Origin: Rhodococcus marinonascens NBRC 14363 | GTDB lineage: Bacteria; Actinomycetota; Actinomycetes; Mycobacteriales; Mycobacteriaceae | Reading direction: 5' to 3' | DNA length: 64,000 nucleotides | NCBI RefSeq assembly: GCF_001894885.1 | Contig: NZ_BCXB01000009.1 | Span: 1-64,000, forward strand | Part shown: one piece after another, positions 9,850 through 42,391 of the stretch | Layout of the letters: each line of letters begins with the position of its first letter | Numbering within the stretch: position 1 is the stretch's first letter | Translations under genes and position numbers: made by a program | The notes under the pieces: generated by a model | Databases searched by the model: none | Told to the model about the DNA's origin: nothing | What the model saw: only the letters and a program-made list of their open reading frames with translations

Positions 9850-11408
9850 TGGTCGAGAGTGAACCCAGCCCGCTCGATCTCCGGCTCGTACCGTTCGCTG
9901 GGATGTGCTGGGCAGCAACGCTGATCGGTATCCTGTGGGGGCCGGGTGCTGCTTGGATGCTGGTGGGCTCGCTGTCCGCGACCGCCGTCGTCCTCACCGC
10001 TTCGTGGGCGCTGCGAGGGAGGGAGCGGTGGACGTCGGCAATGCTGGCGCTTCTGGTGTTCGGATCTTGCTGCGCTGCGGGTGCGGCGTGGCGAGTGCAG
10101 GCCGTCGAGCAGCACCCACTGACCGCACTGGCCCACAGCGAGTCGTGGGTGACGCTCGTCGTGACCCCGGTCGACGACCCTCGTGAGATCGCCGGTTTCG
10201 GCCGGCAGGTCGTCGTGAAGGCGAACCTACTCGAGATCCGCAAGGCCACCGAGACCGTCATCTCGGGTGGGGCCGTGGTCGTCCTCGCCCCTTCCGAGGG
10301 GTGGAAACAGATCCTGCCGGGGCAGCGGGTGGTCCTGCGTGGACAACTGAGCGTGCCGCTGCGCAGAGGCCTTGGCCTCGCGACTGTCCAAGCGTCGGGC
10401 CCGCCGTCGGAGGTCGGGCCGGCACCCTTGCATCAGCGGTGGGCGGGCGCCTTGCGTGCACGGTTGGCTGCCGCGGCCGCGGTCCTGCCGGCCGCGGAAG
10501 CGGGTCTGCTACCCGGGTTGGTGGTGGGGGACACCTCGGCGCTGTCTCGCGAAGTGAAGGTCCACTTCACCGTGACCGGACTGACCCACCTCACGGCGGT
10601 GTCTGGGGCAAACGTCAGCATCCTGCTGGGGGCGGTGTTGCTCGTGGTGCGAGGGGTAGGGCTCGGCCCAGTCGCGGGCGCCGTGCTCGCCGCCGTGGCG
10701 TTGATCGCGTTCGTGGTGGTCGCGCGACCGTCGCCGAGTGTGCTGCGCGCCGCCGCGATGGGATCGGTCGCGCTCCTGGCGTTCGTTTCCGGACGGCGGA
10801 AGCAGGCATTGCCTGCGCTGGCTGCGGGTGTCATCGCCCTGCTGGCCTGGTCGCCGGAGTTGGCGGTGGACTTCGGCTTCGCCTTGTCGGTCACGGCCAC
10901 CACAGGGCTGATAGTGATCGCCCCGATCTGGGTCGACCTGCTCGTGGGCCGCGGGTGGCCGCGTGCGGTTGCCGAGGCGCTGGCCGTGTCCGTCGCAGCC
11001 TTCGCCGTGACCGCTCCGATCGTCGCCGGAATGGCCGGAACCGTCAGCGTGGTATCCGTTGTCGCGAACATACTGGTTGCCCCTGTGGTCGGCGTGATCA
11101 CGGTCGTCGGGGCTGTCACCGCACTGGTCGCAGCAGTCAGCATGCCAGTTGCGGAAATTGTAGTGCGCCTGACCCAGTGGCCGCTGTGGTGGCTCGTGAC
11201 GGTGGCGGAACGCGGAGCGCGTATTCCCGGAGCGTCGGTGGTGGTGCCGTCCGGTCTTGCTGGTGCTGCGGTCGTCGTCGGTGGTGCCCTGACCCTCGGC
11301 GTGGCTTTGCGCTGGTACTGGTCCCGGCTGGTGATTGTGGGGGCAGTGATTGGAGTGCTGGTGCTATGGGCGCCGATCTGGCCGACGTCTCTCGTTCATG
11401 AGGTGTGA
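9849..11408 (+). CDS. comEC: ComEC/Rec2-family DNA channel protein, short form
   Basis: 519-residue polytopic membrane protein. N-terminal helices are followed by an OB-like extracellular region (PVDDPREIAGFGRQV, PGQRVVLRGQLSV) and the competence domain with VVGDTSALSREVKVHFTVTG, LTHLTAVSGANVSILLG and multiple helices. The C-terminal metallo-beta-lactamase domain found in long ComEC proteins is absent; the mycobacterial homologue is similarly short. ATG at 9849 overlaps the comEA stop. The open frame runs further upstream but inside comEA. Function is inferred to be DNA transport across the membrane. Confidence 0.92.
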   Translation: MVESEPSPLDLRLVPFAGMCWAATLIGILWGPGAAWMLVGSLSATAVVLTASWALRGRERWTSAMLALLVFGSCCAAGAAWRVQAVEQHPLTALAHSESWVTLVVTPVDDPREIAGFGRQVVVKANLLEIRKATETVISGGAVVVLAPSEGWKQILPGQRVVLRGQLSVPLRRGLGLATVQASGPPSEVGPAPLHQRWAGALRARLAAAAAVLPAAEAGLLPGLVVGDTSALSREVKVHFTVTGLTHLTAVSGANVSILLGAVLLVVRGVGLGPVAGAVLAAVALIAFVVVARPSPSVLRAAAMGSVALLAFVSGRRKQALPALAAGVIALLAWSPELAVDFGFALSVTATTGLIVIAPIWVDLLVGRGWPRAVAEALAVSVAAFAVTAPIVAGMAGTVSVVSVVANILVAPVVGVITVVGAVTALVAAVSMPVAEIVVRLTQWPLWWLVTVAERGARIPGASVVVPSGLAGAAVVVGGALTLGVALRWYWSRLVIVGAVIGVLVLWAPIWPTSLVHEV

Positions 11409-11460
11409 GAACGATCGACTCGGGGAATGCTCGGAAGAACGTGACGAGAGGAACGGAAAC

Positions 11461-12426
11461 GTGCAGGTGGGCTTCAAATTGATGGCAGAGACCTTCGATC
11501 CGAAGGAGATCGTGCGGCAGACGGTGGAGGCAGAGCGCGCAGGCTTCGACTTCGTGGAGGTGAGCGACCACTACCATCCGTGGCTGTACAGCCACGGTCA
11601 CTCGGGGTTCGCGTGGTCGATGCTGGCCGCCGCGGCCGCGAGTACCGGCACGATCGGATTGGCCACGGGAGTCACCTGTCCTTTCGGCAGATTCCACCCC
11701 GCGATCATCGCGCAGGCCGCGGCGACCACGGCCATCCTCAGCGAGGGCCGGTTCACGCTCGGACTCGGGTCGGGCGAGTGGCTCAACGAGCACGTGGTCG
11801 GTGGAGACTGGCCGCCGGTGCGCGTCCGGCACCAGATGTTGCGCGAATCGATCGACATCATCCGCCTGCTGTGGTCGGGCGGCTACCACTCGTACGAGGG
11901 GAAACACCTCACTCTCGACGATGCATGTGTCTTCGACCTTCCCGATGTGTCTCCGACGATCGCGGTGGCGGCGGGTGGCCCGGCCTCTGTCGCTCTCGCC
12001 GCCGAACTCGGGGACGGTCTCTTCACGACCGCACCGGACCCCGAACTGGTGAAGGCGTACGCGAAAGCCGGTGGATCGGGGCCGAAGTACGCAGAGGTGC
12101 CTCTGGCTTGGGCACGCGACGAGGACACCGCCGCCGAATCGGCGCACCGGATAGTCCGATTCGGCCTGACAGGATGGAAGGTCATGACGGAACTGAAGAA
12201 CCCGATCGATTTCGAGGCGGCGTCGTCCTCGATCAGTACCGAGGACGTCCGAGGGCTAGTGGCCTGCGGGCCGGATGTCCAGCGACATCTCGAAGTGGCA
12301 GGCCGATACGTGGACGCCGGATTCGATCATCTGGCATTGGCCAACTCCGGGCCGGACGTGGACGGGTTCTTCGAGTTCTTCTCCAACGAATTGAGTGAAC
12401 CGCTGCGGGCTCTGGCACGGACTTGA
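11461..12426 (+). CDS. F420-dependent LLM-class oxidoreductase (G6PDH-like)
   Basis: 321 residues with the F420-family luciferase-like pattern: KLMAETFDPKEIVRQTVEAER, then VEVSDHYHPWL, which resembles the DHxHPW F420-binding segment of F420-dependent glucose-6-phosphate dehydrogenase, and GRFTLGLGSGEWLNEHVVG. GTG at 11461 follows a GAGAGGAACGG ribosome-binding site. The open frame starts inside comEC, but that extension is not coding-like. The substrate is unknown; this subfamily (TIGR03557-type) is mostly uncharacterised. It sits alone between comEC and a small ORF. Confidence 0.88.
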   Translation: MQVGFKLMAETFDPKEIVRQTVEAERAGFDFVEVSDHYHPWLYSHGHSGFAWSMLAAAAASTGTIGLATGVTCPFGRFHPAIIAQAAATTAILSEGRFTLGLGSGEWLNEHVVGGDWPPVRVRHQMLRESIDIIRLLWSGGYHSYEGKHLTLDDACVFDLPDVSPTIAVAAGGPASVALAAELGDGLFTTAPDPELVKAYAKAGGSGPKYAEVPLAWARDEDTAAESAHRIVRFGLTGWKVMTELKNPIDFEAASSSISTEDVRGLVACGPDVQRHLEVAGRYVDAGFDHLALANSGPDVDGFFEFFSNELSEPLRALART

Positions 12427-29376: not shown

Positions 29377-29404
29377 TGAACCGATTGGGTGCTTGTACCG
29401 TGTG
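29377..29404 (+). promoter_or_regulatory. SigL-like ECF promoter before the sigma gene (autoregulation)
   Basis: TGAACC (29377-29382), a 16-base spacer, then CGTGTG (29399-29404), 23 bases before the sigma start. Mycobacterial SigL promoters are described with TGAACC at -35 and CGTgtr at -10. ECF sigma factors of this group usually control their own gene, so this is the expected place. Confidence 0.7.
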
Positions 29405-29426: not shown

Positions 29427-29933
29427 GTGCCGGATGTCCAGACAGAACTGATGCGCGCTCTGTACGAGGAGCATGCGCCTGCACTGTGGCGGTATGCGCT
29501 CAGGTTGACCGGTGACCGCGCCCGCGCCGAGGACGTCGTGCAGGAAGTACTGCTGCGCGCGTGGAAGCATCCGAACGTGCTCGACCAATCCGAATCGTCG
29601 GCGCGGGCCTGGCTGTTCACCGTTGGCCGCAACCTCGTGTTCGACGAGTACCGCAGCGCACGATCCCGGCGCGAGATCGGGATGAACTCGACCCCAGATC
29701 TGGCGGCACCGGACCGATGGGATGGCGCACTCGACTCCTGGATGATGGGCGACGCCCTCGTCCGACTGACTCCAGACCACCGGGCCGTACTCGTCCTCAG
29801 CTACTACCAGGGAATGTCGACCCACCAGATTGCTGACGAACTCGGAATACCTGAAGGAACGGTGAAATCTCGCATGCATTACGGATTGCGGGCCCTCCGA
29901 TTGGCTCTGCAGGAAATGGGGGTGACCCGATGA
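29427..29933 (+). CDS. sigL: ECF RNA polymerase sigma factor, SigL type
   Basis: 168 residues. Region 2: LYEEHAPALWRYALRLTGDR with ARAEDVVQEVLLRAWKHP. Region 4: LTPDHRAVLVLSYYQGMSTH then QIADELGIPEGTVKSRMHYG, a complete helix-turn-helix. The downstream gene, overlapping by 4 bases (ATGA), is a zinc anti-sigma factor of the RslA kind, which supports the SigL assignment. GTG at 29427 follows GAGGTGG. A TGAACC/CGTGTG promoter lies just upstream, and a matching one lies in front of the four-gene operon after the anti-sigma gene. Confidence 0.88.
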   Translation: MPDVQTELMRALYEEHAPALWRYALRLTGDRARAEDVVQEVLLRAWKHPNVLDQSESSARAWLFTVGRNLVFDEYRSARSRREIGMNSTPDLAAPDRWDGALDSWMMGDALVRLTPDHRAVLVLSYYQGMSTHQIADELGIPEGTVKSRMHYGLRALRLALQEMGVTR

Positions 29934-30715
29934 CGATCGACGACTTCGAATCGCACGAAGACGACCCGTACGCGAGCTGGGATGCGGCGTACGTGCTGGG
30001 CGCTCTGTCGCCTGGTGACCGGCGCGAATATGAAGGCCACCTCGCGCGCTGCAGACGATGCTCCCTCGCCGTCGCCGAGCTGGCGGGGATGCCCGGGTTG
30101 CTGGCCCAGATCTCCCCTGAGGTCGCGCTGGGCGCCCTGTCCGAGAACCAGGCGGACGAACATGAGGAACCGCCCGCGCCGCACGTGCTTACTCGACTGG
30201 TGGGCACCGTAGTGCGGCGGCGGCGCTACCAGCGCGCCGCCGCCGCACTCGCGGCCGCGGCCGCTGTGGTGGCCGTCGCCGTTCCTGTCGGTGTGCTGGT
30301 AACACAGACCAGGACACCGGGGACGTCGGTCAGTGCGACGGGCGTCCTCCCGGACGGGGCGACGGGCGTCCTCCCGGACGGGGCGAACACGACCGAGGCG
30401 GTCTTCACACCTCTGGTTCCAACCAAGATCACTGCGAATGCGTCCGTCGCATCGATGTCCTGGGGCACGGTCATCCTCGTTCGGTGCTCCTATGCGGAGG
30501 CGTTGCTCGGCGACACTGGTTACGCCGGCGCCGAGGACTACGCGCTGACGGTCACCGATCACTCGGGGGTCGTCACGAAGTTGGCCACCTGGACCGGCGA
30601 CGCCGGACAGACGGTACGGCCCACAGGCACCACCAGCCTGCCCGTCGAATCGATAGCGAGCATCGACGTGCGGTCTGTCGCCGACAATCAAGTTCTGCTG
30701 ACGACGGCGTTGTGA
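29930..30715 (+). CDS. rslA: Zinc-binding anti-sigma factor, RslA type
   Basis: 261 residues. The N-terminal cytoplasmic anti-sigma domain contains the zinc motif HLARCRRCS (HxxxCxxC) after DAAYVLGALSPGDRREYEGH. A membrane helix follows (AALAAAAAVVAVAVPVGVLV), and then an extracellular beta domain with no catalytic motif. The RslA family releases SigL when the zinc/cysteine site is oxidised or the outer domain senses stress. A perfect 24-base tandem duplication after the helix gives ATGVLPDGATGVLPDGA in the linker. Confidence 0.88.
   Translation: MTIDDFESHEDDPYASWDAAYVLGALSPGDRREYEGHLARCRRCSLAVAELAGMPGLLAQISPEVALGALSENQADEHEEPPAPHVLTRLVGTVVRRRRYQRAAAALAAAAAVVAVAVPVGVLVTQTRTPGTSVSATGVLPDGATGVLPDGANTTEAVFTPLVPTKITANASVASMSWGTVILVRCSYAEALLGDTGYAGAEDYALTVTDHSGVVTKLATWTGDAGQTVRPTGTTSLPVESIASIDVRSVADNQVLLTTAL
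30335..30382 (+). repeat. Two perfect 24-base tandem copies inside the anti-sigma gene
   Basis: The unit (starting GCGACGGGCGTCC, 24 bases) is repeated exactly, at 30335-30358 and 30359-30382. It encodes ATGVLPDG twice in the linker just outside the membrane helix. The length is a multiple of three, so the frame is kept. A recent slippage event is the simplest explanation. Confidence 0.9.
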
Positions 30716-30785: not shown

Positions 30786-30813
30786 TGAACCCGCTGCACC
30801 ACCTATTTGTGTG
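30786..30813 (+). promoter_or_regulatory. SigL-like ECF promoter before the four-enzyme operon
   Basis: TGAACC (30786-30791), a 16-base spacer, then TGTGTG (30808-30813), followed by TAT. The sigma-gene promoter reads TGAACC-N16-CGTGTGTAT, so the two differ by one base over both boxes and keep the same spacing. It lies 59 bases before the start of the first operon gene. Confidence 0.65.
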
Positions 30814-30871: not shown

Positions 30872-32590
30872 ATGAACACCACGCATGACGAGCCGAGGAA
30901 TGCCGACGGCTGTCGGAGTATGCGCGTCGTCGATTACATCGTTGAGGCACTGGCAGCGGAGGGGGTCGGCCACATCTTCGGTGTCGGCGGCGCGAACATC
31001 GAGGACTTGTACGACGCGATTCACCATTCGGGCGCTGTCGAAGGCGTCGTCGCCAAACACGAATTCTCGGCGACGACGATGGCCGACGGCTATGCCAGGA
31101 CGTCGAACCGACTGGGGGTGGTGGTGGCGACGTCCGGCGGAGGAGCACTCAACCTCGTTGCCGGGCTTGGTGAGGCTTTTGCCTCACACACCGCGATTCT
31201 CGCGTTGGTCGGCCAACCGCCGACGACGCTCGAAGGAGCGGGCGCATTCCAGGATACGAGTGGGCTGGCGGGGACGATCGATGCTTCTCGCTTGTTCGGT
31301 GAGGTGTCGGTCTACTGCGCGCGCGTCGAGTCGCCGCTCCACGTGGAGCGTCAACTCGCCGAAGCGCTGTCCGCGGCGCACCGTGGTGGGCCGGCAGTTC
31401 TGCTGCTGCCGAAAGATATCCAGCAAGAATTGGGGTTGTTTCCAGAGCCTCCAGGAGAGGCCCCGACGATGCCGCGCCGTGCGGCGCCGGACGTGAAACG
31501 CCTTGCCGACGCTCTGCGCGACGAATACGGCCGAGTCGTCATCGTGGCTGGTGACGAGGTCGCGAGGGAAGGCGCACGGACCGAACTCGCCGAACTCGTG
31601 CATGCACTCGGTGCGCGGGTAGCCGTCACGCCTGACGCCAAGGACGTGGTCGATCCGCTTGCGCCGGGGCGACTCGGCGTCACCGGGGTGATGGGCAACT
31701 CGGATGTCGCCGACGCGCTGCAGGACACCTGCGTCTGCCTGCTCGTCGGCACCAGACTGCCGGTGATGGCCAGCGGCGGCCTCGACGCCGTCCTGGAGAA
31801 GACATTGGTGTACAGCGTTGGTTCGGCATCCCCGTTCACCGAGGCACACCACACGCAGACGCGAGATCTGCGTGTGACGTTGCGCCGACTCGTCAGCGAG
31901 ATCGGACCGGCCGCGTCGCCTGTACTCGTCGAACAGTGTGATCCGACGCCGCTCGACGTACCGGCCACCGAAACCTCGGGCCTGCACTACACGGACGCGG
32001 TGAAGGCGCTCGCCACGGTGCTGCCCGCCGGTGTCGACGTGTTTGCCGACGCGGGGAACACGGGTGCTGCCGTGGTGCATCATCTTCCGGTGCCGAGCGA
32101 CGGCCGGTTCGTCGTCGCACTGGGCATGGGCGGGATGGGGTACACCTTCGGTGCGGCGATCGGTTCTGCGCTCTCGCGCGGACGGCGGACCATCGTGATC
32201 GCGGGAGACGGCGCATTTTACGCGCACGGACTCGAGATCCACACAGCGGTCGAGTATGACGTGCCGGTGACATTCGTCGTATTCAACAACAATGCCCACG
32301 CGATGTGCCTGACCCGAGAGCAGGTGCAATTCGGGGGCGCATATACCTACAGCCGGTTCCGTCCCGCACACATCGCCGCAGGCGTCGGCGCGCTGTTCCC
32401 GGGACTTGCATCGCACACGGTCGAGACGAGTTCAGCCCTGATGGACGCGTTGCAGGCCACGATGGGTTCGGCGGGGCCGGCCATCATCGAAGTCGCTTGC
32501 GACGCGGACGAGTTACCGCCATTCCGGGCATTCCTGCCCACCGGACACACGAATGGGACATCCAGGTCCCGAGATGGAGTACGCCGATGA
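30872..32590 (+). CDS. Thiamine-diphosphate-dependent enzyme, acetolactate-synthase-like
   Basis: 572 residues, three-domain ThDP enzyme of the POX/AHAS group. The N-terminal PYR domain has the activating glutamate in VAKHEFSATTMADGYAR. The C-terminal PP domain has the ThDP motif GDGAFYAHGLEIHTAVEYDV then VTFVVFNNN. The middle domain shows no clear FAD-binding pattern. It should decarboxylate a 2-keto acid and pass the carbanion to an acceptor; pyruvate or a longer keto acid is possible. ATG at 30872 has GGGAG 8 bases upstream. It is first of four genes and overlaps the second (ATGA). It is not the core IlvB: context and the missing small subunit argue against it. Confidence 0.85.
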   Translation: MNTTHDEPRNADGCRSMRVVDYIVEALAAEGVGHIFGVGGANIEDLYDAIHHSGAVEGVVAKHEFSATTMADGYARTSNRLGVVVATSGGGALNLVAGLGEAFASHTAILALVGQPPTTLEGAGAFQDTSGLAGTIDASRLFGEVSVYCARVESPLHVERQLAEALSAAHRGGPAVLLLPKDIQQELGLFPEPPGEAPTMPRRAAPDVKRLADALRDEYGRVVIVAGDEVAREGARTELAELVHALGARVAVTPDAKDVVDPLAPGRLGVTGVMGNSDVADALQDTCVCLLVGTRLPVMASGGLDAVLEKTLVYSVGSASPFTEAHHTQTRDLRVTLRRLVSEIGPAASPVLVEQCDPTPLDVPATETSGLHYTDAVKALATVLPAGVDVFADAGNTGAAVVHHLPVPSDGRFVVALGMGGMGYTFGAAIGSALSRGRRTIVIAGDGAFYAHGLEIHTAVEYDVPVTFVVFNNNAHAMCLTREQVQFGGAYTYSRFRPAHIAAGVGALFPGLASHTVETSSALMDALQATMGSAGPAIIEVACDADELPPFRAFLPTGHTNGTSRSRDGVRR

Positions 32591-33240
32591 CCAATCAAGG
32601 AAGCGCAGCGTTGTCCGACCTCCCGGCGGACCTGTCCGGACTGGTCCGTATCGAGACCTCCGACCGTGAAGCGATGCTGCCAATAGTCATGGACATGATG
32701 AGATCGGTGTACCCCCACGACCAGGTCTTCGGAAAGTACTGCACTGTCAACGAATACATCAACTGTCCGCCGGACGAGGTGTTCCGCTATCTCTCCCACA
32801 CACTCAGCCTCGAGGAGTGGACCTACAGTCTGCGGGGATTCGCCCCGACGGACGAAGCTGGGCTGTGGCTCTCGACCGACCGTCTGGGCGGCGAAACCTA
32901 CCTGCGCACGGTGGCACACGCCGATGCGAGGACCGTCGACTATCACTGTGCCTGGGACCAGGGAAAACATCTGTGGATGGTGTACCTGATGCGGGTGGTC
33001 GACGCGCGCACGGTGCTCGACGTCGACGGATCCGTCGTGCTGTGGACGAATTGTCATCACCCGTTCTATGACGAGAATCCGTATCCAGAGACGGTACCGG
33101 CGGGTCGAACCGAGTGGGTGGGCGACCTCTGGGAAATGTTCGGTCCCGGACACCAACTCGAGGCGAGCAATCTCAAGGCGATATGCGAATACCGCTGGGC
33201 CAACAACCTGCCCGTGACCCCGACGTGGATGAGTGAGTGA
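32587..33240 (+). CDS. SRPBCC-superfamily protein, aromatase/cyclase-like
   Basis: 217 residues. The central part (CTVNEYINCPPDEVFRYLSH followed by TLSLEEWTYSLRGF) resembles the START/Bet v 1-like SRPBCC fold of polyketide aromatase/cyclases and lipid-transfer proteins, with ARTVDYHCAWDQGKHLWMVY and GSVVLWTNCHHPFY after it. Such a fold would hold a hydrophobic intermediate in a deep cavity. ATG at 32587 overlaps the preceding stop. The role in the operon is probably to bind or shape the product of the neighbouring condensing enzyme; the reaction is unknown. Confidence 0.65.
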   Translation: MTNQGSAALSDLPADLSGLVRIETSDREAMLPIVMDMMRSVYPHDQVFGKYCTVNEYINCPPDEVFRYLSHTLSLEEWTYSLRGFAPTDEAGLWLSTDRLGGETYLRTVAHADARTVDYHCAWDQGKHLWMVYLMRVVDARTVLDVDGSVVLWTNCHHPFYDENPYPETVPAGRTEWVGDLWEMFGPGHQLEASNLKAICEYRWANNLPVTPTWMSE

Positions 33241-33244
33241 AGAT

Positions 33245-34267
33245 ATGGACACGATCAGCCTGATCGATATCGCCAGCTATTTGCCCGAGAGCCGTGTGAG
33301 CGCAGACTATTTCGCCCAGTTCGCCACCTCCGACCGTTTGGCGCACAATGTCATGTTCCGGTCGCCGAAATACCGCCACCACATCGCAAGTGACGAGAAT
33401 GCCGTCGACATGGCCGAACGCGCCGTCGCCCCGTTGATCGAACGGCACGGCTCCGAGACCATATCGAACGTCGATATCCTCATCACTCACACCCAACTGC
33501 CCGATGTTCCCGTCCTCGGCACCGGTGGAGATCTCGCGCGCCGGATGGGGATGACCCCAGACTGGGTGGTGGACCTGCACAACGGAGGCTGCGCGTCGTT
33601 CGTGTACATGATCAAGCTGGCCCGCCAGATCATGCAGACCAGCGACGCATCGACCGCATTGATCGTTTCGGTGCAGAACAGCGCCGGACAGTTCTGCATA
33701 CAGTCGGACGTGCGCGCACGACCGGAATCGGCAATTCCGGGTGATGGCGCAGGTGTGTGTCTGCTGGCGAAATCGGAGGCCGCGCCCGTGCTCGGGCTCG
33801 AGTGCCGCGCCTACCCGGAGTTCGCCGGGGACATGACCGGTGTGGTGGATCCGCCCCGCAAGTACTGGGAGGCGGGAACGGGGCAATTTCGTATCGCATT
33901 CACCGAATCGAAGATCGCGAAAGTGTTCGCCAGGGGGAACCGTCTCGTCCCGGAGGTTGCGATGGCGGTGTGCAAGCAGATAGACATCGCACCGTCCGCC
34001 ATCGACACCCTGGTGACCAACCAGCCCAATAGGTTGTTCCTCCGCAATTGGCGCGACGCGCTCGAACTCCCGGTAGAACGCCACCCCGACACGTTCGACG
34101 AATGCGGGAACCTGTTCGGCGCAGCGATACCCGTGACTCTCGACACAGAGAACAGGGCTGGCCGTATCCCCAACGGATCGTTGGTGATGATGTCTGCCTT
34201 CGCGCATGCGGGGGATTTCGCGGGCGCCGGAGCGGTCCGATGGGGTGCAGCGCCGGTGGGGGTGTGA
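33245..34267 (+). CDS. Ketoacyl-ACP synthase III homologue with altered active site
   Basis: 340 residues, thiolase fold. The nucleophile is Cys in HNGGCASFVYMIKLARQ (codon about 33590). The conserved Asn is kept in ECGNLFGAAIPVTLD. At the place of the usual PHQAN motif the protein has TNQPNRLF, so the catalytic His is replaced by Asn. KAS III enzymes use Cys-His-Asn for decarboxylative condensation. Loss of His suggests acyl transfer or non-decarboxylating chemistry. ATG at 33245 overlaps nothing but lies 4 bases after the SRPBCC stop; GTG at 33233 is an alternative. Distinct from FabH of fatty-acid synthesis. Confidence 0.8.
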   Translation: MDTISLIDIASYLPESRVSADYFAQFATSDRLAHNVMFRSPKYRHHIASDENAVDMAERAVAPLIERHGSETISNVDILITHTQLPDVPVLGTGGDLARRMGMTPDWVVDLHNGGCASFVYMIKLARQIMQTSDASTALIVSVQNSAGQFCIQSDVRARPESAIPGDGAGVCLLAKSEAAPVLGLECRAYPEFAGDMTGVVDPPRKYWEAGTGQFRIAFTESKIAKVFARGNRLVPEVAMAVCKQIDIAPSAIDTLVTNQPNRLFLRNWRDALELPVERHPDTFDECGNLFGAAIPVTLDTENRAGRIPNGSLVMMSAFAHAGDFAGAGAVRWGAAPVGV

Positions 34268-34268
34268 G

Positions 34269-35318
34269 ATGGCGAGCCCGACGATCGTACAACCCAGCGC
34301 TGGATTCGATCTCGCGCTGAGCGAGAACCCTTTCGCCCCGTTGCCTTCGGTGGCCTCGGCGCTCGTCGACGTCATGCATCAGGTGCAGCGGTATCCGGAG
34401 TTCCTACCCCACCGACTGATCGACGTCATCGCGAATCACGAAGGGCTCGAAAGTGATCAAGTAGTGGTGGGTGCGGGCGCCACCGGTGTCGCGATGCAGA
34501 TCATGCAGTCCGTCGCGCGGCCGGGGGAGCGGATCGTGTACACCGCTCCCACGTTCGACGGCTACCCCATTCTGGCGGAAATGGCGTCGCTCGGCGCGGT
34601 CCCGGTGCCGATCCTTCAGGACGGTGGGCAGGATCTGATTGCGATGGCGAACGCGATCGACGACCGCACTCGGCTCGTCGTAGTTTGCCGTCCGCACAAT
34701 CCAACGGGGACGCTTGTCGATGCCGGCGAACTGAAGACCTTCCTCCGTCGTGTCCCGAAGAGGGTGGTCGTCGTCCTCGACGAGGCCTATTTGGAATTCG
34801 TCGACCGCGGCCTGGTCCTGGACGCGCACCGTATCATCGCCGAGCATCCGAACGTTGTCTTCCTGAGAACGTTCTCCAAGGCGTACGGACTGGCGGGATT
34901 GCGCATCGGATTCGGGTTCGCGAGTGCGGTTTTGGCGCGGAAGATTCGAACATTGCAAATACCGTTCGGGATGGGGAGCGCCGCCGTCGCCGCCGTCACG
35001 GCGTCGTACGCAGCGGAAGGCGAACTCCTCGATCGGGTGTCCGCCATTGTCTCGGAACGGGACGCATTGCGAAGGGCGTTGCGTGGTTGGGGAGTGCCGG
35101 TCGTCCGCAGTCACGCAAATTTCCTGTACATCCCGGGCGAGAGTGTCGGCGACGCACTGGCCCGCGCCGGCATTCGCGCGCGCACTTACCCGGGTGGCGC
35201 GGCTCGGATCGCAGTGGGCGATCCTGCCGCGGGCCGCGCGGTGCTGTCCGCCCTCAGGCCGACAGTGCGTGGAATTCCTGAAGAAGTGCAAGTGTTTGCC
35301 AGTAGCGGTCGAGCATGA
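34269..35318 (+). CDS. PLP-dependent aminotransferase, class I/II (HisC-like)
   Basis: 349 residues, fold type I. RPHNPTGTLVD is the PLP-binding NPTG loop, VVVLDEAYLEF the conserved Asp with Tyr, and RTFSKAYGLAGLRIGF carries the Schiff-base Lys (SKAYGLAGLR). It resembles histidinol-phosphate aminotransferase in layout, but the context excludes histidine synthesis. In the cassette it could aminate a keto product of the ThDP/KAS III steps. ATG at 34269 lies 1 base after the KAS III stop. Its last 65 bases overlap the convergent chelatase gene. Confidence 0.85.
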   Translation: MASPTIVQPSAGFDLALSENPFAPLPSVASALVDVMHQVQRYPEFLPHRLIDVIANHEGLESDQVVVGAGATGVAMQIMQSVARPGERIVYTAPTFDGYPILAEMASLGAVPVPILQDGGQDLIAMANAIDDRTRLVVVCRPHNPTGTLVDAGELKTFLRRVPKRVVVVLDEAYLEFVDRGLVLDAHRIIAEHPNVVFLRTFSKAYGLAGLRIGFGFASAVLARKIRTLQIPFGMGSAAVAAVTASYAAEGELLDRVSAIVSERDALRRALRGWGVPVVRSHANFLYIPGESVGDALARAGIRARTYPGGAARIAVGDPAAGRAVLSALRPTVRGIPEEVQVFASSGRA

Positions 35319-40933: not shown

Positions 40934-41062
40934 TGTGCCACGTCAAATCGCTGATGCAGATTTCGGCATCGAAGTCCTGCATTTCTGTGGGAAATATCGC
41001 AAGGATGCGACTGCGACGCTCGGGTGGGACAAGCCGTTCCCGGCGCCTGGAAGACTGGCCGG

Positions 41063-42391
41063 GTGAGCGGAGCCAGCACTACCAATGACAGTCGGCAGGA
41101 GTCGGCGGAGTTCATGCTTCCCGAACGGGCGTTGGCGGGGGTTCGGAACCGGCCGTTCGGGATCTACGTGCACGTGCCCTTCTGTGCCACGCGTTGCGGG
41201 TATTGCGATTTCAACACCTATACGGCCGGCGAGTTGGGCACGTCGGCATCGCCGCAGTCGTGGATGGAGGGGCTTCGCCGCGAACTCGATGCGGCGGCGG
41301 AGATGACGGGTGCTCCGACCGTCGACACGGTATTCGTCGGAGGCGGGACGCCATCCCTGCTCGGGGGCGACGGACTGGCAGACGTCCTCGGCGCGATCCG
41401 TTCGAGTTTCGGGGTCGCGAGCGGCGCCGAGGTGACCACGGAGTCGAACCCGGAGTCCACGTCGCCGGAGTTCTTCGATCGCCTGCGGACCGGCGGATTC
41501 ACGCGGATCTCGCTGGGGATGCAATCGGCGGCGCAGCACGTCCTGAAAGTGCTCGACCGCACCCACACGCCAGGTCGCGCGGTGTCTGCGGCGCTGGAGG
41601 CGCGGGCGGCGGGATTCGAGCACGTCAACCTCGATCTCATCTACGGGACACCCGGCGAACGGGACGAGGACTTGGACGCGTCGCTGGATGCGGTGCTGTC
41701 GGCCGGGGTGGACCACGTCTCCGCGTACGCGCTGATCGTCGAGGACGGCACGGCGCTGGCCAGGAAGGTGCGCCGAGGCGAACTGCCCGCGCCCGACGAC
41801 GACGTCCTCGCCTCGCGGTACGAGCGCATCGATGCACGGCTGGCAGAGGCGGGTCTGACCTGGTACGAGGTGTCGAACTGGGCGCGGAGCAATGGTGCCG
41901 GGGCGAGCGAAGCGACGGGGGATTGGCGCGGGGCGAGCGAAGCGACGGGGGATTGGCGCGGGGCGAGCGAAGCGACGGGGGATTGGCGCGGGGCGAGCGA
42001 AGCGAGGGGGGAGTCTCGTTGCAGGCACAACCTGGGGTACTGGGACGGTGGGAACTGGTGGGGTGCCGGGCCTGGCGCGCACAGTCACGTCGGCGGGGTG
42101 CGCTGGTGGAACGTCAAGCATCCGGCGCGCTATGCGGAACAGTTGGCGGCCGGCCGACTGCCGGTCGGGGGAAGCGAGCAGCTGACCGTCGAGGACCTCC
42201 ACGTCGAGCGCGTGATGCTGACTGCCCGGCTGCGGACGGGACTGCCGGTTGCGGAACTGGATGCCGGAGAGCAGCGCGCGGCCGAGGAAGTTGCGGCCGA
42301 CGGACTGCTGGTGCGCGAACACGACCACTTTGTGCTGACCGGCCGAGGACGACTCCTGGCCGACGCCGTGATCCGAACCGTGCTGAGGTAG
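41063..42391 (+). CDS. hemW: Heme chaperone / radical SAM protein HemW
   Basis: About 442 residues. FGIYVHVPFCATRCGYCDFN carries the radical-SAM CxxxCxxC cluster motif, and the following Phe is typical of the HemN/HemW group. VDTVFVGGGTPSLL and VNLDLIYGTPG complete the core, and the C-terminal HemN domain follows after RCRHNLGYWDGGNWWGAGPG. HemW lacks coproporphyrinogen oxidase activity in other bacteria and delivers heme. Between the core and the C-terminal domain lie three perfect 10-residue repeats GASEATGDWR. GTG at 41063 or ATG at 41114 (GGAG upstream) could be the start. Confidence 0.92.
   Translation: MSGASTTNDSRQESAEFMLPERALAGVRNRPFGIYVHVPFCATRCGYCDFNTYTAGELGTSASPQSWMEGLRRELDAAAEMTGAPTVDTVFVGGGTPSLLGGDGLADVLGAIRSSFGVASGAEVTTESNPESTSPEFFDRLRTGGFTRISLGMQSAAQHVLKVLDRTHTPGRAVSAALEARAAGFEHVNLDLIYGTPGERDEDLDASLDAVLSAGVDHVSAYALIVEDGTALARKVRRGELPAPDDDVLASRYERIDARLAEAGLTWYEVSNWARSNGAGASEATGDWRGASEATGDWRGASEATGDWRGASEARGESRCRHNLGYWDGGNWWGAGPGAHSHVGGVRWWNVKHPARYAEQLAAGRLPVGGSEQLTVEDLHVERVMLTARLRTGLPVAELDAGEQRAAEEVAADGLLVREHDHFVLTGRGRLLADAVIRTVLR
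41901..42020 (+). repeat. 30-base minisatellite inside hemW (three perfect units plus one degenerate)
   Basis: Units at 41901-41930, 41931-41960 and 41961-41990 are identical; 41991-42020 is a diverged fourth copy. Each begins GGGCGAGCGAAGCGACGGGG and encodes GASEATGDWR. Because each unit is 30 bases, copy-number changes keep the frame. The GCGAGCGAAGCGA core is a motif also found as dispersed short repeats in other actinobacteria, by my recollection. The repeat falls in a loop before the HemN C-terminal domain. Confidence 0.95.

Follow-up and report, generated by a model that had tools for sequence, protein, structure and literature searches.

What does a compact run of four enzyme genes in Rhodococcus marinonascens NBRC 14363 make, and what controls it? 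The run lies in a stretch of 64,000 nucleotides (positions 1 to 64,000 of contig NZ_BCXB01000009.1, hereafter the window) of a 4.92-Mb genome, and encodes a thiamine diphosphate (ThDP) enzyme, an SRPBCC protein, an enzyme resembling beta-ketoacyl-acyl carrier protein synthase III (KAS III) and a pyridoxal phosphate (PLP) aminotransferase, next to genes for a sigma factor and its anti-sigma factor. Judged by its sequence, the SRPBCC protein is a homologue of a carbazole synthase, and the four genes probably make the core of a carbazole alkaloid, from an operon presumably transcribed from a SigL-type promoter. While a preliminary description of this DNA was aware of no named pathway combining precisely these four enzymes, bacterial carbazole biosynthesis uses this very set, and the cluster thus matches an already characterized pathway in its core chemistry.

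The assignment of the SRPBCC protein had to be made through the PDB, as the protein has no match in Pfam, NCBIfam or PHROGs. There, phmmer aligned its residues 15-205 with chain 6ipv_A, CqsB2, at E 9.2e-46, the next match following at E 0.0088, and 83 of the 190 aligned residues (44%) are identical. CqsB2 is described as the cofactor-free carbazole synthase of carquinostatin biosynthesis, with Glu105, Tyr144, Tyr172, His206 and Glu209 as its likely catalytic residues (PMC7466098). Four of them (Y144, Y172, H206 and E209) align with Y133, Y161, H189 and E192 of the window's cyclase, and in a survey of 140 loci, in which some genomes stand twice because they came from two collections, these four are invariant wherever aligned (139/139, 139/139, 140/140 and 140/140 loci, respectively). 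The remaining proposed catalytic residue, Glu105, is not kept and is replaced by Asp98, a conservative change; among the 139 loci aligned at position 98, 136 have Asp there, and Glu is found in L037, L079 and L213 (L numbers denote loci and G numbers genomes). We predict that the protein cyclizes the product of the KAS III-like enzyme to a carbazole.

The remaining three genes complete the parallel. In the carbazole pathway as outlined in PMC7466098, the aminotransferase CqsB7 makes indole-3-pyruvate, the ThDP enzyme CqsB3 joins it to pyruvate, the keto acid thus formed is condensed with an acyl thioester by the KAS III-like CqsB1, and cyclization is the task of CqsB2; the bacterial set comprises CqsB7, B3, B1 and B2, and NzsH, NzsJ and NzsI. 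Genes for a ThDP enzyme, a KAS III-like enzyme and a carbazole synthase stand together in the window as in a carquinostatin/neocarazostatin-type cluster, and by homology the cassette corresponds to CqsB3-B2-B1-B7, which form the carbazole core of these compounds. In R. marinonascens, the aminotransferase would convert L-tryptophan to indole-3-pyruvate, the ThDP enzyme may join this to pyruvate, the KAS III-like enzyme, carrying the acyl group on Cys120, would condense with the ThDP-derived keto acid with loss of CO2, and the cyclase would close and aromatize ring A onto indole C2, so that overall tryptophan, pyruvate and an acyl thioester would yield a 1-alkyl-2-methylcarbazole.

The earlier proposal that a keto acid is joined to an acyl chain by the ThDP enzyme and the KAS agrees with the cqs/nzs parallel, and the four enzyme classes named there hold as well, with Pfam backing the ThDP, KAS III and aminotransferase assignments and PDB entry 6ipv that of the SRPBCC protein. 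Its suggested product, an amino-ketone or an acyloin-derived lipid amine formed with the aminotransferase acting last, is allowed by the enzyme classes alone but did not find support: the SRPBCC protein has its closest match in a carbazole synthase, and the aminotransferase of the carbazole pathway acts first, on tryptophan, so that an amine is not the expected product. Furthermore, no aminotransferase was found beside the other three genes (the trio) in Tsukamurella L033 and L214-L216, in Mycobacterium L061, L062 and L068, or in L217, as is expected if it catalyzes an initial reaction for which a housekeeping enzyme can stand in. We consider a lipid-amine or acyloin-amine product highly improbable and set it aside for a carbazole after the CqsB2 match; the parallel with the 2-methyl-3-n-amyl-pyrrole (MAP) branch of prodigiosin biosynthesis was dropped because a far closer relative of the cyclase is already known.

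The choice of keto acid deserves separate consideration. The ThDP enzyme belongs to an acetolactate-synthase-like group, with BbmA (1e-58) and CsmA as its best PDB matches, followed by acetolactate synthases, and the aminotransferase matches best a putative phenylalanine aminotransferase, 4r2n (2.1e-53), with a HisC next (1e-35); the papers listed for BbmA included none of relevance. Both sets of matches would also suit a ThDP enzyme that takes another aromatic keto acid, such as phenyl- or hydroxyphenylpyruvate, to a product that is not a carbazole. This is unlikely, however, given that the known cyclase closes onto the nucleophilic indole C2, which has no counterpart in a phenyl ring, that the proposed catalytic residues are kept as described above, and that a TrpB-like gene lies one gene away from the Tsukamurella tyrosinosolvens copy.

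Within this chemistry, the R. marinonascens enzymes form a group of their own. The KAS III-like enzyme has the KAS III domains and the active-site Cys and Asn of FabH, the classical KAS III, but carries Cys120, Asn263 and Asn293 (numbered from GTG 33233), i.e., Cys-Asn-Asn and not Cys-His-Asn, and it scores below the NCBIfam FabH cut-off (TIGR00747, 90.9 of 292.1 bits); its AlphaFold2 model has a mean predicted local distance difference test score of 84.9 and a predicted template modeling score of 0.88. The His is kept in the three PDB relatives aligned, while across the surveyed loci position 263 is Asn in 134 of 136 aligned cases and His only in the CqsB-type L037 and L213. Identity to CqsB2 is 85% for the cyclase of L037 (Embleya) and 70% for that of L213 (genome G664), and in a tree of 44 hand-picked loci out of the 140 these two group with CqsB2, apart from the other 43 rows, across a branch of 1.38 with support 100/100. 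The same split divides cyclases with Glu at position 98 from those with Asp, the one exception being L079, which has Glu but falls outside the CqsB2 clade. Both kinds of cyclase occur in G664 (L212 and L213), a genome from a different family of the class. Based on the clade split, the KAS His/Asn difference and the cyclase Glu/Asp difference, we assign the cassette subfamily to a second branch of the carbazole machinery, here mostly in Mycobacteriales. In classical KAS III the His helps decarboxylation, and a KAS III-like family with His replaced by Asn bears on how beta-keto-acid nucleophiles are decarboxylated.

The surroundings of the cassette suggest a simple product. Genome-wide, 56 matches to PF00550 (PP-binding) mark candidate acyl carrier proteins (ACPs), none of them in the window and the nearest at C9:101428, about 66 kb from the cassette, and the single PF00494 (squalene/phytoene-synthase) match of the genome lies on another contig; known carbazole prenyltransferases are described as being of this type (PMC7466098). 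By eye, no cytochrome P450, second KAS III or isopentenyl diphosphate isomerase was recognized among frames of at least 90 amino acids between 24000 and 42000, no profile search having been made for the latter two. As no tailoring genes were recognized, we expect a simple 1-alkyl-2-methylcarbazole, carrying one or two oxygens on its rings, whose alkyl group would come from a primary acyl-coenzyme A or acyl-ACP and is quite possibly long, as in compounds of the lipocarbazole or carbazoquinocin type. Such 1-alkyl-2-methylcarbazole frameworks are known from lipocarbazoles, carbazoquinocins and carazostatin, and carbazoquinocins are reported to inhibit lipid peroxidation (PMC11350554); lipocarbazoles, titled antioxidative, come from Tsukamurella pseudospumae Acta 1857 (reference 7 in PMC7466098). 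Together with the redox control of SigL, these properties led us to the hypothesis that the product is possibly a lipid antioxidant like the Tsukamurella lipocarbazoles.

Several points weigh against this product. The metabolite assigned to the R. marinonascens strain is a prediction from homology, the KAS III His is replaced by Asn in the window's enzyme, and CqsB1 and CqsB2 are reported to accept only beta-hydroxyacyl substrates (PMC7466098), so that a plain fatty tail misfits unless the window's subfamily differs; for the carbazoquinocin enzyme, the same source expects plain acyl groups. This requirement for a beta-hydroxyacyl donor favors a carbazole core with a short chain of that type (3-hydroxybutyryl), i.e., a diffusible, precarquinostatin-like ortho-quinone or catechol instead of a lipid, which might serve to bind metal or to cycle redox equivalents; catechols are potential metal ligands, and a connection of sigL with growth of M. 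tuberculosis at low iron is reported (PMC10449499). Nevertheless, the window offers no dedicated ACP for such a donor, the CqsB2 clade is set off by a long branch with full support, both the KAS His and the cyclase Glu have changed, and a Tsukamurella makes lipocarbazoles (PMC7466098). Thus, we regard the short-chain product as possible but doubtful, and the plain alkylcarbazole remains our preferred prediction.

That the genes form one unit is supported by their arrangement (Table 1) and by its conservation. As the preliminary description had stated, the four genes adjoin with overlaps or gaps of 1-4 bases, in open frames on the + strand: the ThDP and SRPBCC genes overlap by 4 bases, the KAS III-like gene follows after a gap of 4 from its ATG or overlaps by 8 from GTG 33233, and the ATG of the aminotransferase gene, whose frame is open from 34206, stands directly beside the KAS stop (gap 1). 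The ThDP gene starts 156 bases after the end of the anti-sigma gene. Related stretches were compared as named loci, the best 80 of at least 515, mostly from Mycobacterium/Mycolicibacterium with some from Rhodococcus and Nocardia. A tblastn map found the order ThDP-cyclase-KAS in 78 of the 80, the same order with the aminotransferase in 76, and all six genes including the sigma pair in 54, so the unit is not due to chance and the claimed operon with its link to the sigma pair was borne out. Rhodococcus jostii (L087) is one of the species with the six-gene order. Among loci L033-L084 (n = 52), the trio is in order in 47, with the aminotransferase in 36, and all six genes are found in 25.

The regulator and its presumed promoters can be named from homology. 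Among solved structures, the nearest relatives are SigL for the sigma factor (6dv9_F, phmmer E 3.8e-62) and RslA for the anti-sigma factor (chain 3hug_B, E 1.7e-17), and the sigma factor additionally scores 261.7 bits against NCBIfam NF007227 (cut-off 202). The anti-sigma factor contains the zinc/redox motif HxxxCxxC at residues 37-44. All 58 named loci in which an anti-sigma factor was aligned share this motif, the other 22 of the 80 having none aligned. When M. tuberculosis RslA is oxidized, its CXXC cysteines are reported to form a disulfide, zinc is released and the affinity for SigL falls eightfold (PMC2877774). Considering that the window's anti-sigma factor is RslA-like and carries the same kind of zinc site, oxidation probably releases SigL, which would then transcribe both sigL-rslA and the cassette. 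The anti-sigma gene also contains a tandem repeat (30335-30382) encoding ATGVLPDG twice, after a presumed membrane helix.

The SigL consensus is reportedly TGAACC-N16-18-CGTGTC (attributed to Hahn 2005 and Dainese 2006), and no bacterial source for it turned up among the papers listed by a literature search on SigL with TGAACC. A strict pattern, TGAACCN{16,17}YGTGTG, has exactly two matches in the 4.92-Mb genome (29377 and 30786) and none in the reversed control, and the wider TGAAC[CT]-N16-[CT]GTGT returned the same two matches only in the window, two being reached anywhere in just 2 of 200 dinucleotide shuffles. The count in relatives is based on 73 of the 80 named loci, leaving out L150 and L157 (no aligned ThDP gene) as well as L105, L117, L133, L152 and L160 (too little upstream sequence). 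The pair lies within 2.5 kb of the ThDP gene in 54 of these, and a strict site precedes the ThDP gene in 53 of the 73 overall, 45 of them among the 54 pair-adjacent loci and eight among the 19 loci without an adjacent pair; before the sigma gene, 26 of the 54 have one. In total, the named loci hold 85 strict sites in 2,084,332 strand-bases, as compared with about 2 expected for uniform bases, and the spacers of the 50 distinct sites are on average only 45% identical, so that, even though the loci are related, the two boxes have not been kept by close relatedness alone.

Moreover, the co-occurrence with the sigma pair, which the preliminary description had proposed to check, was found across genomes as well as at the locus. 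Among 198 Mycobacterium genomes, 126 have both the cyclase and a SigL-like factor, five the cyclase only, 45 the sigma factor only and 22 neither (Fisher p 6e-8, shared ancestry being ignored). In twelve of the 126, chosen from the head of the list ranked by cyclase match, the start of the sigma gene lies on the same contig and strand as the cyclase at a distance of about 3.1-3.2 kb (five genomes) or 8.7-8.8 kb (seven genomes), so some non-adjacent cases are still linked.

Set against control by the pair are the following observations. Shared ancestry may account for part of the co-occurrence; a relaxed promoter pattern gave 18 genome matches versus 9 in the reversed control, for which reason only the strict form is informative and no further SigL targets are claimed; of the 54 pair-adjacent loci, nine lack a strict site in front of the ThDP gene, and in front of the sigma gene 28 lack one; and no pair adjoins in 19 of the 73 usable loci. 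In addition, the pair was not found beside the Tsukamurella loci examined, L061, L062, L068 or the R. opacus plasmid copy L034, and the nearest relative by cyclase identity (G422, a Rhodococcus, 87%) has neither the pair nor the aminotransferase in the stretch compared. Copies without a pair nearby are thus many, as would be expected if the pair were a mere neighbor exerting no control over the cassette. We nevertheless find this decidedly improbable, as the only two strict sites of the genome fall one to each transcription unit and as the site recurs before the ThDP gene across loci with diverged spacers, including the eight without an adjacent pair. L217, from this closest Rhodococcus relative (G422), keeps TGAACC-N16-CGTGTG before its ThDP gene, although only sigL/rslA-like remnants, recognized by eye, are left there (at about 11280-11680). 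Altogether, the SigL/RslA-like pair probably controls the cassette from the SigL-type promoter, making the cassette a candidate direct target for a redox-sensing pair known mostly from M. tuberculosis.

Table 1. Coordinates of the sigma/anti-sigma pair, the four-gene cassette and the SigL-type sites in the window.
Feature	Position	Strand	Basis
Promoter, SigL-type TGAACC-N16-CGTGTG, 5' of sigma gene	29377..29404	+	strict pattern match
Extracytoplasmic function (ECF) sigma factor, SigL-like	29427..29933	+	phmmer, NCBIfam
Anti-sigma factor, RslA-like, zinc	29930..30715	+	phmmer, HxxxCxxC motif
Promoter, SigL-type TGAACC-N16-TGTGTG, 5' of cassette	30786..30813	+	strict pattern match
ThDP enzyme, presumed CqsB3/NzsH role (acyloin synthase)	30872..32590	+	Pfam TPP N, M, C domains
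SRPBCC protein, carbazole synthase homologue (CqsB2/NzsI-like cyclase)	32587..33240	+	phmmer to 6ipv
KAS III-like condensing enzyme, putative CqsB1/NzsJ role	33245..34267 (ATG) or from GTG 33233	+	Pfam ACP_syn_III_C + ACP_syn_III
HisC-like PLP aminotransferase, presumed CqsB7 role	34269..35318	+	Pfam, PDB match

The cassette is flanked upstream by sulfate-type transport genes and a universal stress protein gene, and downstream by genes for CbiX and a CysN-like GTPase; the transport genes and further sulfate genes were recognized by eye. An open reading frame at 41024-42391, by eye of the HemW/HemN type of radical SAM proteins, contains four GASEATGDWR-like repeat units (41900-42019), three identical and one variant.

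The subfamily is widespread within the order. Cyclase-bearing genomes accounted for 41 of 397 in the order and 28 of 394 in the class, where they fall into 7 of 138 genera (the class sample consists partly of the same genomes as the order sample), with 131 of 198 in Mycobacterium, 15 of 16 in Tsukamurella and 12 of 28 in Rhodococcus, the genus of the window; some of the matches are partial or decayed. The closest cyclases among the named loci, the best 80 stretches mentioned above, are from Rhodococcus, at 81-82% identity. Several Mycobacterium genomes (e.g., G007 and G142) have two or three cyclase matches, and second-type Mycobacterium copies (L061, L062 and L068) form a clade of their own, with no aminotransferase, sigma pair or promoter site found nearby. 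Since a homologue of the carbazole cyclase occurs in 131 of 198 Mycobacterium genomes, mycobacteria may be the main home of the carbazole machinery and may make an uncharacterized indole alkaloid.

Individual copies differ in their surroundings. Hemerythrin-domain proteins adjoin the cassette genes in R. opacus (L034:5547-6257) and in Nocardia sp. NBC_01327 (L036:9127-9759), and the neighbors of the Tsukamurella copy (L033:9816-22879) encode a flavodoxin-domain protein, an alpha/beta hydrolase and a TrpB-like enzyme, followed at a greater distance by a member of the styrene/indole monooxygenase family. In M. europaeum (L106:1996-5183), the opposite strand carries a large membrane-type frame and an ABC ATPase-like frame, both by eye, immediately ahead of the ThDP gene; no sigma pair was found within 7 kb upstream. 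Two Mycobacterium genomes of about 3.3 Mb, each in a single contig (G851 and G886), gave weak cyclase matches only, at E 8e-29 and E 2e-31, while a SigL-like factor was not found in either at E 1e-40; the cyclase matches are probably decayed remnants, which would fit the reduced genomes of the leprosy group.

The mycobacterial copies place the cassette at the sigL locus known from M. tuberculosis. M. gastri (L158) shows the series secY, adk, map, sigL, rslA, ThDP, cyclase, KAS, aminotransferase, MarR. The cyclase is preceded by map and the sigma pair and followed by this MarR gene in 48 of the 80 named loci, and the MarR gene lies downstream in 64. For M. tuberculosis, the MarR regulator Rv0737 is reported immediately downstream of sigL-rslA (PMC13002591), which means that the site of the cassette, between rslA and MarR, is closed there. 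We infer that Rv0737 and the MarR gene of these loci are orthologs and that M. tuberculosis lost the cassette, as opposed to a gain in the other lineages. More tentatively, and as a serious possibility rather than an expectation, we propose that the Cys-Asn-Asn second branch supplies most Mycobacterium species, and many Rhodococcus, Nocardia and Tsukamurella, with a carbazole that bears a lipid tail and scavenges radicals in the membrane, that its synthesis is induced by oxidation through SigL-RslA, and that the operon is an ancestral SigL target lost in the M. tuberculosis lineage, where the regulator was kept.

With regard to the literature, the core chemistry is known in outline. The machinery has so far been described in a few Streptomyces, and PMC7466098 names three other bacteria, Streptomyces cattleya, Sorangium cellulosum and Scytonema tolypothrichoides, outside the described Streptomyces. 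None of the titles, abstract openings and passages covered reports a carbazole cluster from Mycobacterium, Rhodococcus, Nocardia or Tsukamurella, a weak negative given the thin coverage of subscription journals; in the accessible text of PMC10100901 Mycobacterium appears solely as a test organism, and in PMC10221244 as well as in the two papers found for carbazole alkaloids together with Rhodococcus the relevant words stand only in the reference lists. Likewise, among the papers listed for SigL with acetolactate synthase and 3-oxoacyl, none reports the operon in its title or the start of its abstract. Within these sources, the subfamily, its spread through mycobacteria and the link to SigL were not found, and these are what the present analysis adds.

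Comparison with known systems summarizes how the cassette stands. With the cqs/nzs clusters of Streptomyces it shares a ThDP acyloin enzyme, a KAS III-like enzyme, a cofactor-free carbazole synthase and a tryptophan aminotransferase, including the proposed catalytic residues of the cyclase other than Glu105, whereas it differs in the Asn at the KAS His position, in a cyclase of a separate clade and in the adjoining SigL/RslA-like pair. It resembles the M. tuberculosis SigL-RslA system in strong matches to both proteins, in the zinc motif and, in the mycobacterial copies, in the upstream secY-adk-map, whereas in M. tuberculosis MarR is reported to follow rslA directly, with no cassette between them, and the reported SigL targets are others, namely pks7-pks10, Rv1138c-Rv1139c and recN (PMC13002591). 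As for the lipocarbazoles of Tsukamurella, for which the accessible parts of the literature yielded no gene cluster, their 1-alkyl-2-methylcarbazole skeleton fits the predicted product of the cassette, and members of the producing genus carry the subfamily, with the trio present in L033, L074, L075 and L214-L216 (L215 being 99.99% identical over 16,001 bases to a T. tyrosinosolvens sequence), which makes this cassette a candidate gene set for lipocarbazoles.

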